A stretch of DNA of 64,000 nucleotides, taken from an uncultured Oscillospiraceae bacterium (GTDB lineage: Bacteria; Bacillota; Clostridia; Oscillospirales; Oscillospiraceae). The stretch's first letter is position 1, and each line of letters starts with the position of its first letter. The translations under genes and the position numbers were made by a program. The notes below the pieces were generated by a model. The model was given only the letters and a program-made list of their open reading frames with translations, was not told the DNA's origin and made no database searches. Below, piece by piece: positions 18,135-23,227 of this stretch. The DNA is taken from assembly GCA_950097245.1 (NCBI GenBank), contig CATNCS010000002.1:1-64000 (forward strand), in the 5' to 3' direction.

Positions 18135-19785
18135 ATGGAATTTTTTTGTTACGCCTATGGCCGTCTGTCCAAGGAGGACCTGGACAAAAAGGCGGAAAGC
18201 GACAGCATCAAGAATCAGCGCGACCTGATCCACGCCTACATCGACCGTGACCCGGAGCTGCACCTGGTCATGGAGGGCTACGACGATGGCTACACCGGCA
18301 CCAGCTTTGACCGGCCCCACGTCCGGGAGATGCTGGAGGCGGTGAAGTCCGACAAAGTCAACTGCGTGGTGGTCAAGGACCTGTCCCGGTTTGGACGGGA
18401 GTACATCGAGTCGGGCCAGTACATCGAAAAGCTGTCAGTACATCGAAAAGCTGTTCCCGGCCCTGGGAGTGCGTTTTATCGCCATCAATGACAACTACGA
18501 CACCGCCCACCTGGACAGCTCCAGCAGCCTGATGCTGCCCTTCAAAAATTTGATGAACGACAGCTATTGCCGGGACACCTCCATCAAGATCCGCAGCCAC
18601 CTGGATGTGAAGCGGCGGAACGGGGAGTTTATCGGCTCCTTCGCTGTCTATGGCTATGCCAAGGACCCGGAGAACAAAAACCGTTTGGTGGTTGACCCGG
18701 AGGCGGCTGAGACGGTACGGGAGATTTTTGCCCGTCGTATTGCCGGACAAAGCTGTCAGGCCATTTCGGATGATCTGAACGCACTGGGAGTCTTGTCTCC
18801 CATGGAGTACAAGCGGTCTAAGGGGATCAACTTCAAGACCGGCTACCAGGTGCAGAGCAAAGCCAAGTGGAGCGCCCGGGCGGTACTTCGTATTCTGGAA
18901 AACGAGGTCTATCTGGGCATTATGACTCAGGGCAAGCGCACCACTCCCAATTACAAGGTCAGGACGGTGGTCGAGCGCCCGCCTGAAGCCTGAATGCGGG
19001 TGGAGGGGACCCACGAGGCCATTATCAGTCAGGAGGATTTCCGACTTGCGGCCCGTTTGAAGGGCAAGGATACCCGAAAGGCCCCCGGGGCCAGCGTGGT
19101 CTATCCTCTGTCGGGGCTGGTATGCTGCGGGGACTGCAAGAGCAATATGATCCGAAAAACCAGTCTCTATGGCGAAAAGACCTACGGTTATTTTGTCTGC
19201 GCTGCCCACTGGGCGGATAAATCGGTATGCTCCACCCACAGCATCAGCGAGACCAAGCTGGAGCAGGCAGTGCTGGAGGGGATCAACTTTCACATCAAGA
19301 TGGTAGCGGAGCTGCGTGGAGCGCTGGAGGCCATCAGCCGCCGCCCCATGCAGCGGGTGACGCTGGAGCGGATGGACCGCCGGCTGGATACTCTGCGGCA
19401 GGAACTGGCCCGAAAACAGGAAATCAGGGACAATCTCTACCGCCGCTATGCCAGCGGTGAGGTATCCAAGGAGGATTTTTACGATTTCAAGCGCATTTTC
19501 ACCAAGGATTGTGAAGAAGTTGAACAGTCCATTGAGACGCAGCGGCATCAGCTGGATGAAATGCTGGCCAACACCTCCCCGGACAGCCCCTGGATTGAAT
19601 ACTTTCAGCGGTTCGGCCAAATTGACGTGTTGAACCGGGATGTGCTGGTGCGTCTGGTGGAGCGGATTCTGGTCTACGAGGACAGCCGGATTGAGATTGT
19701 GTTCCAATATCAGGCACAGTTTGAGCAGGCCAAGGCCGTGGCCTCCTCCTTTGCGGAGGACGATGAACTTCGGGAGGCGGTGTAG
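18135..19785 (+). pseudogene. Large serine recombinase 1, disrupted
   Basis: ATG 18135 follows CAGGAGG. The catalytic domain (YAYGRLSKED with the active Ser, then KDLSRFGREYIESG) breaks at a perfect 19-bp tandem duplication (18417-18435 and 18436-18454), which shifts the frame by +1. The protein resumes in ORF 18391-18993 (KLFPALGVRFIAINDNYDTA, the recombinase domain) and is then interrupted by an in-frame TGA at 18991-18993, just before MRVEGTHEAIISQEDF. In the third and fourth recombinases this place has Trp (SEW in the fourth), so TGG to TGA is likely. The zinc-ribbon (CCGDCKSNM) and coiled-coil ends are intact. Two independent lesions imply loss of function. Confidence 0.85.
18417..18454 (+). 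repeat. 19-bp tandem duplication that breaks recombinase 1
   Basis: cagtacatcgaaaagctgt occurs twice with no gap (18417-18435, 18436-18454). Removing one copy restores SGQYIEKLFPALGVRF, the sequence expected from the paralogues. Confidence 0.95.
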
Positions 19786-19787
19786 GC

Positions 19788-21285
19788 ATGGCGAGGAAAA
19801 GCCGAAAGGACCAGATCAGGGCTGCAAACAGTGGACAAGCCCTGTCTGAGCAGAGGCAGACTGCGGCTCCCGCTGAGAAAACCTATGCTACCGTGGGTTA
19901 CGCCCGCCTGTCCATCCTGGAAACCAGGGATAGGAAGGACAGCGAGGCCCTGCAAAATCAGAAAGCGCTCATTCGGGAATACATTCAGAGCCAGGGCGAC
20001 TTAACGCTGCTTTCCATCTACGAGGACAACGGCGAGACCGGGACGAATTTCCAGCGGCCCGGGTTCGAGGCCATGATGGAGGCCATCTGTGCTGGAAAAG
20101 CCAACTGCATCGTGGTCAAGGACCTGTCCCGTTTTGGTCGGAATTACATTGAGGCCGGCAACTACCTGGAACACGTATTTCCGGCGATGGGCGTCCGCTT
20201 TATCTCCATCGGGGACGGCTACGACAGCGCCGAAAAAATTGGAGGGCGTCAGCAATGCAGGCATTGTCCGCTGGCTGAACAATTCCGGGATTTTGTCCCC
20301 CTGCTACTACCGGTACCAGAAAGGCATCCTGATCGACCAGCGGTTCGCCCAGCCCAAGCCCTGGAAGGTGGAAACGGTAAAGAATATCCTGCGCAGCCAA
20401 GTCTACCTGGGCCATATGGTACAGGGCCGCCGTCGCTCGGAGTTTTACGCCGGGATACCGGACCGGCTCCTGCCGAAGTCGGAATGGACCATTGTGGAGA
20501 ATACCCATGAGGCCATCATCAGCCAAGCAGACTTTGACGCTGTACAATCCATTTGTGATTTGAAACAGAAAGAATACCACGCCAATCTGGGAAAGTACGA
20601 TCACCTGGGAAAGAGCGAAAATATTCTGAAAGGCCTGGTTTACTGCGGCGACTGCGGCCGGCCTATGGTGCGGTATAAGCAGGTGGTCAAAGGGAAAAAG
20701 GTGTCCTACCATTACATGTGTCCCAACTACGCCGCTATGCTGGAGCGGAGCGGCTGCGCCTACAAATTCCTGCGGGAGGATATCCTGCTGGACGCCCTGT
20801 CCCAGCTGATTGGCAAGGAAATCGAGCAGGCGGTGGATACTGTACGACTGGCCAGACATCTCTCCGCTGGAAAAGAGGGACAAATCACCGCCAGAGCGGC
20901 GGAACTCCGGCGGCTGAATCTGGACCTGGAGCGGGCTGAAAACCGAAAAAAGACGGTTATGCAGGATTTTTTGGCCGGAGAGCTGTCCCGCGATGAATAT
21001 GAGCAGCTGAAGATATGCTGTACCGGAGAGGCCGAGCGGTTGAAAAACCGTATTCTGGCACTCCGGGAGGAGCAGCACTGTCAGTCCGAGACGCTGACCG
21101 GGGATAATCCCTGGCTGAAAACCTTTGGAGGTCTCCAACTCCCTGACCGACTGACCAAGGAGCTGGCCCATGGACTGATCCAGCGTATTACGATTTACGA
21201 GAACGACCGAATTGAAGTGATTTTCAAGTATAGGGATGAGCGGGAGCAGCTGCTCACCGCGATTAACAAGGAGGTAGTAGCATGA
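19788..21285 (+). pseudogene. Large serine recombinase 2, internal deletion
   Basis: Begins with ATG 19788, 2 nt after the end of recombinase 1, with GGGAGGCGGTG upstream. The catalytic domain is intact (VGYARLSILE, KDLSRFGRNYIEAG, GVRFISIGDGYDSAE). At about 20232-20245 the frame changes and the sequence jumps straight to GVSNAGIVRWLNNSGILSP. Compared with recombinase 3, about 80 residues between YDS and the helix ending in LNEDGIPTP are missing, so a deletion of roughly 240 bp that is not a multiple of 3 explains both length and frame. The zinc ribbon (VYCGDCGRPM) and coiled coil follow in ORF 20089-21285. Truncated product would be a catalytic domain only. Confidence 0.8.
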
Positions 21286-22895
21286 CGGCGGCAAAATATA
21301 TCCGACTGTCCTCCGCTGACGAGGACATCAGGATGGGCGATAAAGCAGAAAGCAACAGTGTGGTTAACCAGCGAAAGCTGCTGGACTGTTATCTTGAAAG
21401 CCACCGTGAATTTTCCAACTGCACAATTTTGGAGTTTTTGGACGATGGCCGCAGCGGAACCAACCTGGACCGGCCGGGAATGCGCGCCATGCTGGACGCT
21501 GCCCGCCGGCACGAAATCGACTGCATCATTGTGAAGGACTTTTCCCGCTTTGCCAGGGACTACATTGAGTCCGGCCGTTACCTGGAACAGGTTTTCCCGG
21601 CCCTGGGCATCCGGTTCATCTCTGTCAACGATTGTTACGACAGCTATGATTTTCCCTACGGCACCGCTGGCAATATCAATAACGGTCTATTAAACTTGAT
21701 TAACGAAATGTACAGCCGAGACCTATCCCAGAAATCCAAAGCGGCCAAGCGGCTGTACGCCCAGCGGGGCCAGTGTATATCTGCTTATCCGGTCTATGGT
21801 TATCTCAAATCCCCGGAGGACAAACGGACTTGGATTCCCGATCCGGAGGCGTCCCCGGTGGTACAGCGGATGTTCAACTGGTATGCAGAGGGACTCACCT
21901 CCACGGAAATAGCCAAACGGCTGAATGAGGATGGTATCCCTACGCCAGCCCAGCATAAGAGGGCGCTGGGGTCCAAACGTCAGCCGGAACGCACCGATAA
22001 TTTCTGGCGGGCCACTACGATTGGAAAAATCCTGCGGGACGAGCGGTACACCGGCAAGCTGGTGGCACTGAAAACCACACTGAGCGAACTGGGGAACATC
22101 CACTCAGCCAAGGCAATCGAAAAAGATGATTGGGTCATCGTTCCTGGAGCGTTTGAGGCGATTATCTCTCAGGAAATCTTTGACCAGGTACAAGCAAAGC
22201 TTGAAACGGCCAGGCCCACTCGGAAGCTGGGCCCCATGAAACGGAGACTGTTTTCTCGAAAGCTAAGATGCGGCCACTGCGGCGCGGCGTTGATACGCCA
22301 TGAGATTGCACAGGGCGTCTACTACACCTGCGATGGCAGGGCATGGAACGGAACAGATGACTGCAAAAAAATCCGCCTGTTTGAGACAGACCTGATTCAA
22401 GCGGTTCTGGCCTCCATCCGGTTTCAAGCTCAGTTGGCGAAAAAGACAGAGAAGCGCCTTGACCGAAAGGAAAAACAAATCCAGACGGCACAAAATCGTG
22501 CTCAGTCAGCCCAGCAGCGTATTCAGAAACAAATCGCTCAGCTGGAGACACGGAAAGCGGAGGCCTATCTGAGCTATGATTTGGGCGAGGTATCGCAGAG
22601 CGATTACAAAAACCGCTGCAAAAAGATTGATGCCGCCATTATGGAGCAAAAGCGGCAGCTGGACGCCTTGGAACAGGACAGTGGCAGCATTCTCCCTGAT
22701 ATGGATACTGTCAGCTGTGAGCAGATCAACAGCTTGAAACCGCTCAGTAACTTGCGGACCTTGAATCGGGATATGGTTGAGGTGCTGATTCACTCCATTC
22801 AGATCTACAATGGAAATCGGATTGAAATTGCATGGAATTTTAACGAGGACTATATGAAACTTCTTGCGGAGGAGGATACAGCTATGCGGGTATAA
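21282..22895 (+). CDS. Large serine recombinase 3, intact
   Basis: 537 residues. N-terminal resolvase fold with catalytic Ser in AAKYIRLSSADED and the Arg cluster KDFSRFARDYIESG; recombinase domain from about 170; zinc ribbon LRCGHCGAALIRHE; coiled coil near 395-450; C-terminal tail. This is the full domain set of large serine integrases, which exchange attP and attB strands through a serine-DNA intermediate. Its ATG overlaps the stop of recombinase 2. As the only undamaged member of the trio it may still act, if it does not need its partners. Confidence 0.92.
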   Translation: MTAAKYIRLSSADEDIRMGDKAESNSVVNQRKLLDCYLESHREFSNCTILEFLDDGRSGTNLDRPGMRAMLDAARRHEIDCIIVKDFSRFARDYIESGRYLEQVFPALGIRFISVNDCYDSYDFPYGTAGNINNGLLNLINEMYSRDLSQKSKAAKRLYAQRGQCISAYPVYGYLKSPEDKRTWIPDPEASPVVQRMFNWYAEGLTSTEIAKRLNEDGIPTPAQHKRALGSKRQPERTDNFWRATTIGKILRDERYTGKLVALKTTLSELGNIHSAKAIEKDDWVIVPGAFEAIISQEIFDQVQAKLETARPTRKLGPMKRRLFSRKLRCGHCGAALIRHEIAQGVYYTCDGRAWNGTDDCKKIRLFETDLIQAVLASIRFQAQLAKKTEKRLDRKEKQIQTAQNRAQSAQQRIQKQIAQLETRKAEAYLSYDLGEVSQSDYKNRCKKIDAAIMEQKRQLDALEQDSGSILPDMDTVSCEQINSLKPLSNLRTLNRDMVEVLIHSIQIYNGNRIEIAWNFNEDYMKLLAEEDTAMRV

Positions 22896-22982
22896 CAAAC
22901 AGGCTTGTGGTTGATTTGATCGACAATGTATGTGTGGGGAACGGCTCCTTTCTCCGTTCCCCACACTGCTTAAAATGAGTTG

Positions 22983-23097
22983 CTTTTTGGTTTTTACAGG
23001 ACACCTTCACCCGATAGTGTCCAATAAAAACCAAAAAGGAGATTGTTTTATTTCCTCCGAGAAAAATTTTTATAATTTTTTGGTTTTCCCTTGACAC
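22983..23097. repeat. Three copies of a 22-nt motif (two inverted, one direct)
   Basis: Copy A 22983-23004 and copy B 23017-23038 are inverted around a 12-nt loop. Their arms share 14 perfect pairs (CTTTTTGGTTTTTA / TAAAAACCAAAAAG) plus GGACAC / GTGTCC, with two mismatches. Copy C (23076-23097) is a looser direct repeat of A (TTTTTGGTTTT..TGACAC). Placed right behind recombinase 3, these could be recombinase binding sites; the A/B pair could also be a terminator. Confidence 0.7.
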
Positions 23098-23151
23098 TTT
23101 CTGATGACGGAGTTTCCGGTACACCAAAACGATAGATGATTTTGTAAAAAT

Positions 23152-23190
23152 GCGTCACTCGTCTCAAGTGCAGATGAGTGACGCGTTTCT
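23152..23190 (+). terminator. Hairpin before the 131-aa gene
   Basis: GCGTCACTCGTCT (23152-23164) pairs with AGATGAGTGACGC (23172-23184) with one mismatch and a 7-nt loop, followed by GTTTCT. It could end the recombinase transcript or act as a 5' leader structure of the next gene. Confidence 0.5.
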
Positions 23191-23227
23191 ATAAATCTAT
23201 AAAAAATTTAAAACGGAGGAATATGTT

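Follow-up and report, generated by a model that had tools for sequence, protein, structure and literature searches.

The closest described systems are the streptococcal ICEs with triplet serine integrases, which are Tn1806-like (PMC4701971; PMC12942858). Triplet elements of this kind target mutT, traG, and hsdM (Ambroset 2016, PMC4701971), and Tn1806-like elements nest within other ICEs (PMC12942858). The locus described here resembles Tn1806-like ICEs in that a tandem triplet of large serine recombinases occupies one end, insertion disrupts a gene with very short direct repeats, and the genes entered belong to other mobile elements (traG, snf2, and hsdM in the streptococcal case). Unlike in those ICEs, the targets here are serine recombinase genes, entered at the DDG motif with a 2-bp GA repeat, and an internal attP-like dyad is located 93-94 bp from the crossover. 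Tn4451 with TnpX belongs to the same large serine recombinase family and shares the GA crossover dinucleotide, but it has a single recombinase, many GA sites, and a TnpX that is sufficient alone (PMC3158075; PMC5704250). The use of GA sites by Tn4451 has been reported (PMC5704250). Like the attP of serine integrases, as seen in the LI integrase structure, the sites found here have half-sites of ~25 bp flanking a central dinucleotide, with distinct inner and outer blocks for recognition; unlike those integrases, which need no auxiliary DNA sequences (PMC3783163), a second full site adjoins attR.

The window analyzed here is a stretch of 64,000 nucleotides from an uncultured Oscillospiraceae bacterium. 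The original prediction had described a near-perfect 22-bp inverted repeat and a looser third copy in direct orientation behind an intact serine recombinase, and this description was borne out in each part. Copy 1 (22983-23004, + strand) and copy 2 (23017-23038, - strand) form an inverted match of 22 nt with two mismatches and a 12-nt spacer, while copy 3 (23077-23101, + strand) lies in direct orientation at an offset of 93, with 80% identity to copy 1 over 25 nt. In a pattern search of the whole window, copies 1 and 2 were the sole matches at ≤3 mismatches (0.00 expected from shuffles), and a repeat search of the whole genome returned this locus only, plus one match with 3 mismatches elsewhere. 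The dyad formed by copies 1 and 2 has 22 of 28 positions symmetric, the maximum in 400 shuffles of the region being 19. The adjoining recombinase is intact (recombinase 3, Table 1), and its closest solved structure is the N-domain of TnpX (2mhc, E 2e-19).

Table 1. Features at the right end of the element, in window coordinates.
Feature	Position	Strand	Basis
Recombinase 1, broken	18135-19785	+	Aligned to the intact 543-aa gene of G033; Recombinase-domain match with one in-frame TGA
Recombinase 2, broken by a 224-bp deletion at 20231	19788-21285	+	Aligned to the intact 573-aa gene of G033
Recombinase 3, intact; large serine recombinase of 537 aa, external in the triplet	21282-22895	+	Resolvase, Recombinase, and Zn_ribbon_recom domains
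Perfect stem-loop of 13 bp after the recombinase operon	22932-22966	+	Repeat search, relatives, fold
Copies 1 and 2, full attP-like dyad of two ~25-bp half-sites, central dinucleotide CC (23010-23011)	22983-23038		Symmetry, register with att half-sites; matching changes in the two arms in G006
Copy 3, element-side P half-site of attR	23076-23102	+	20-mer shared with the right ends of four other genomes and one IMG/VR contig
Crossover dinucleotide GA, element end	23103-23104	+	2-bp GA overlap of the flanks on the uninterrupted target; all left ends align at GA
Target-side half-site, left over from a serine recombinase gene (DDGVSGT motif) that is otherwise gone	23105-23124	+	Translation; G428 flank matches to 23122

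Three tandem genes with Resolvase and Recombinase domains are located at the element end, as in triplet serine-integrase elements; parA, parB, sortase, and surface-protein genes were also seen. In genome G033 the triplet is intact (543, 573, and 540 aa) and 99.6% identical to the window over its length. Among 401 genomes of the family and 391 of the class, the only close relative of recombinase 3 besides the window's own was that of G006, at 57% identity; plasmid and phage records held only distant relatives of this protein and no DNA relatives of the element's right end. A scan of 84,980 genomes for the 20-mer at the element end identified only G033, G022, G006, and Pseudoflavonifractor sp. 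60 (G428) besides the window's genome, and one further right end was found in an IMG/VR contig. In each of these records the 20-mer lies at such an element end, so the repeat is not one that occurs widely at unrelated gene ends. The homologous right ends in the four genomes and the IMG/VR contig cease to match the window at the junction, at ~23103-23110; G033, G022, and G006 match as far as ~23110 and diverge beyond it. In all of them, as in the window, the P half-site 20-mer is followed by one base and then by GATGACGG. The best explanation of the region is that a large integrated mobile element, operated by a tandem triplet of large serine recombinases, has its right end here. Just beyond the element, at 23141-23195, there is a 24-nt inverted repeat (83%), and a similar stretch occurs at unrelated places in G007 and in G022:C13.

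The crossover was fixed by an empty site. An intact gene in G695, which belongs to another genus, matches the left flank of the G428 element to base 1649 (98.4%) and its right flank from base 1648 (83%), and the overlap of the two flanks is exactly GA. This overlap on an uninterrupted gene places the crossover at 23103-23104 of the window. Comparative genomics therefore shows copy 3 to be the P half-site of attR, with strand exchange at this GA, and comparison with both the relatives and the empty site leaves the element boundary there and not elsewhere. The original prediction offered two guesses, an attachment site or the recombinase's own binding site, and each holds for different copies. 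Copy 3 is the element half of an attachment site, as the five right ends and the empty site show. Copies 1 and 2 fit a complete binding site of the recombinase type, though not the recombining one.

The relatives are each inserted in a different serine recombinase gene or remnant, at codons for DDG(Y/V/W)SG. Downstream of the junction, a serine recombinase gene begins abruptly at the DDG motif in G033 (DDGYSGASFQRPGF), G006 (DDGYSGTSFERPGF), G428 (DDGVSGTRFDRPGF), and the IMG/VR contig (DDGWSGANFERPSW), and only a short remnant of the target gene is left in G022 and the window. According to Pfam, the flanking genes of G033, G006, and G428 are different serine recombinases that start at position 37 of the Resolvase domain. 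The GA overlap and the recurrent motif are what is expected of insertion inside a specific gene with a very short direct repeat. Among the recombinase motifs without an insertion in the loci retrieved, 18 of 54 read GATGACGG, and the word is uniform at the element junctions, suggesting that the DNA word, and not just the protein motif, is recognized. For the relatives, these alignments show that the partner site is the GATGACGG stretch, which encodes the DDG motif in the serine recombinase gene of another element; the window retains only a remnant.

In G510:C6 (L139, ~160-700), the N-terminal part of a recombinase gene, as far as ~98 bp beyond the GA, is similar to the G428/G695 target, and the remainder is unrelated; the gene is a natural chimera joined within the catalytic domain. 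In G428:C313 (L112) and in the right flank of L011, recombinase genes end at DDGYSGATF/DDGYTGTNF and are followed by an inverted repeat, GGTAAGATA...TATCTTACC; in L011 (G022) the C-terminal part of a recombinase lies in reverse orientation after this repeat. A different triplet element, in G022:C3 (G022:C3:155520; L072, ~8000), also lies in a serine recombinase gene, where the equivalent motif is DKGYSG; its right half-site, TTGACATTGGC-GGA, is related but has diverged. Recombinase genes may, on the example of this element, be a common target of triplet elements. In two loci of G454 (L097, L102), recombinase genes share a single open frame with the last part of a traG/VirD4-like coding sequence, as would result from insertion in traG.

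A profile of recombinase N-termini found 5' halves broken off in G428, G006, and G022, and the left-end sequence used as a query revealed more ends in G022, G007, and G502. The left ends (two in G428, two in G022, and one each in G006, G007, and G502) each follow a recombinase 5' half that stops at the same motif and ends in GA, after which comes the common element sequence TGATAGTGCTATATTAGGACCAAGTCAGAAAGTGC, whose variants align without gaps. The target gene is common to G428 and G007, and the other left ends are in different genes. Left and right ends are on different contigs, and their pairing is based on target-gene homology. The G006 left end was located on contig C36; contig C16, considered earlier, did not contain it. 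The left-end motif was not found in the window's own genome (G000) or in G033, and the window starts within the element. Downstream of the left ends there are parA-like genes, and also parB where annotated in G006. In Flintibacter muris DSM 110149, the circle joint of the excised element is predicted to have the core ...CACTTTCT-GA-TGATAGTGC.... The left ends also contain a hairpin, GGACCAAGTCAGAAA...TTTCTGATTTGGTCC, followed by a T-run (L108, ~1338-1400; L109, ~142-210), which is probably a terminator shielding the element from transcription of the target gene. It was considered as a second attP-like site and rejected, since the T-run that follows and the opposite direction of the motif are terminator-like.

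Copies 1 and 2 have the architecture of a large serine recombinase att site. The 93-bp offset of copy 3 transfers its crossover exactly onto the dyad center (23010-23011) with no fitting, and P, P', and the dyad arms are in register over ~23-25 bp as inverted half-sites about a central dinucleotide. Read outward from the core, an AGTG/GGTG block on the inside and an ACCAA block on the outside recur in the right P (AGAAAGTGTCAAGGGAAAACCAA), the left P' (TGATAGTGCTATATTAGGACCAA), and the two dyad arms (TGAAGGTGTCCTGTAAAAACCAA, CGATAGTGTCCAATAAAAACCAA), in agreement with the ~25-bp half-sites and two-domain recognition of serine integrases (PMC3783163). Compared over 24 positions, the dyad arms agree with the right P half-site at 18 and with the left half-site of G428 at 14-15. 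Of 59,952 24-mers in the window, only 3 score as high as the better arm. The match between the G006 left half-site and the window dyad is weak (10-12/24). A recombining attP would have the GA core of attB, and GA is found in none of the dyads: CC forms the core in four of them (window, G033, G428, and G022) and GG in the fifth (G006). Since a CC core cannot pair with GA, the dyad is predicted to be non-recombining. It might be argued that such a resemblance to attP with a non-matching core marks a functionless relic, either an old attP duplicate or the scar of another insertion. The best dyad center relative to the crossover is at -93 in the window, G033, and G428 and at -94 in G022 and G006, about nine helical turns, so the distance is kept even where identity in recombinase 3 is only 57%, and the symmetry survives substitutions. 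We therefore regard a relic as very improbable. A dyad was sought near the right end of the second triplet element (G022:C3), and none was found; this absence and the weak match of the G006 left half-site speak against the reading favored below.

The arms of the G006 dyad differ in sequence but keep their symmetry, with concordant changes at five positions (simple random model, P = 0.0004), and with the center retained at -94 this indicates that the dyad is probably constrained at a fixed distance of about nine turns. Base pairing in RNA would also explain concordant changes, and the dyad could be a hairpin of the recombinase transcript (a terminator, a 3'-end stabilizer, or a small-RNA feature) with only an incidental likeness to att; its fold is very stable (z -7) and it lies directly after the recombinase operon. 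However, a T-run precedes and an A-run follows the stem on both strands, which is the reverse of an intrinsic terminator. The terminator scan made no call, in line with the original view that the repeats are too long for an ordinary terminator, and a role as intrinsic terminator was rejected for want of a T-run directly after the stem. Rfam gave no family at threshold, and the arms are in register with att half-sites, with the center at a fixed phase of 93-94 bp to the crossover. Moreover, the separate stem-loop at 22932-22966, variable in sequence among relatives with its stem retained, already follows the operon and is the probable transcript end. An RNA role, second among the rivals, therefore seems quite unlikely.

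In G006 the P half-site is unchanged although the dyad arms have diverged. Different triplet proteins might therefore recognize the dyad and the crossover site, or a protein other than a recombinase might recognize the dyad. The faster evolution of the arms also suits the main rival, an operator through which a recombinase or another element protein controls transcription, for example that of a partition operon joined in the circle, where the dyad would sit ~93 bp ahead of the left end and then the parA/parB genes. But no promoter-like site was called at the dyad, and an operator requires neither the att half-site register nor the centering on a core dinucleotide. We consider an operator unlikely.

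The reading we favor, and consider probable, is that copy 3 is the attR half-site and that copies 1 and 2 form an accessory site beside the crossover, which would be bound by recombinase and would not recombine. A recombinase dimer of the triplet would most likely bind the dyad, which with its CC core should be unable to exchange strands with attB, attL, or attR. With a spacing of about nine turns, the dyad and the crossover face the same side of the helix, and the most likely role of the dyad would be that of an accessory docking site for stabilizing or regulating the recombinase complex at attR or attP. In the res sites of resolvases, the accessory subsites II and III are recombinase-binding dyads that stay uncut at a fixed distance from the crossover site. 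The dyad here would be comparable to these subsites as an uncut dyad at a fixed distance, but res sites belong to small resolvases of the Tn3/gamma-delta type, with different enzymes and spacing, so the analogy is one of working and not of membership. A fuller proposal is that a dedicated, permanently uncuttable attP-like site, phased at about nine helical turns, controls integration or excision in an element that makes rival mobile elements' recombinase genes its specific target and inactivates them; we put this forward only tentatively and think it somewhat doubtful.

In the window copy, a 19-bp duplication at 18417 shifts the frame of recombinase 1, which also has a nonsense change to TGA near 18992. 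Because recombinases 1 and 2 are broken, only ~20 bp of the target gene survive, and no left end was found, the element is probably an immobile, decaying resident, unless the lesions are sequencing errors. Another intact large serine recombinase (513 aa) is encoded on the same contig at 36422-37960 of the window, possibly in another element.

A literature search covering papers available without subscription returned no report of recombinase genes as a target or of an accessory site for large serine recombinases, and both the target and the internal non-cuttable attP-like site appear to be new. According to existing descriptions, short att sites are all the DNA that large serine recombinases require, so a conserved second site that cannot be cut would be an exception. 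By entering other recombinase genes at their conserved catalytic motif, the element gains a landing site in many other mobile elements. Defined att sites are now available for a recombinase triplet of gut bacteria. Insertion also switches off the recombinase of the host element for as long as the invader remains, and such competition between mobile elements may be reversible.
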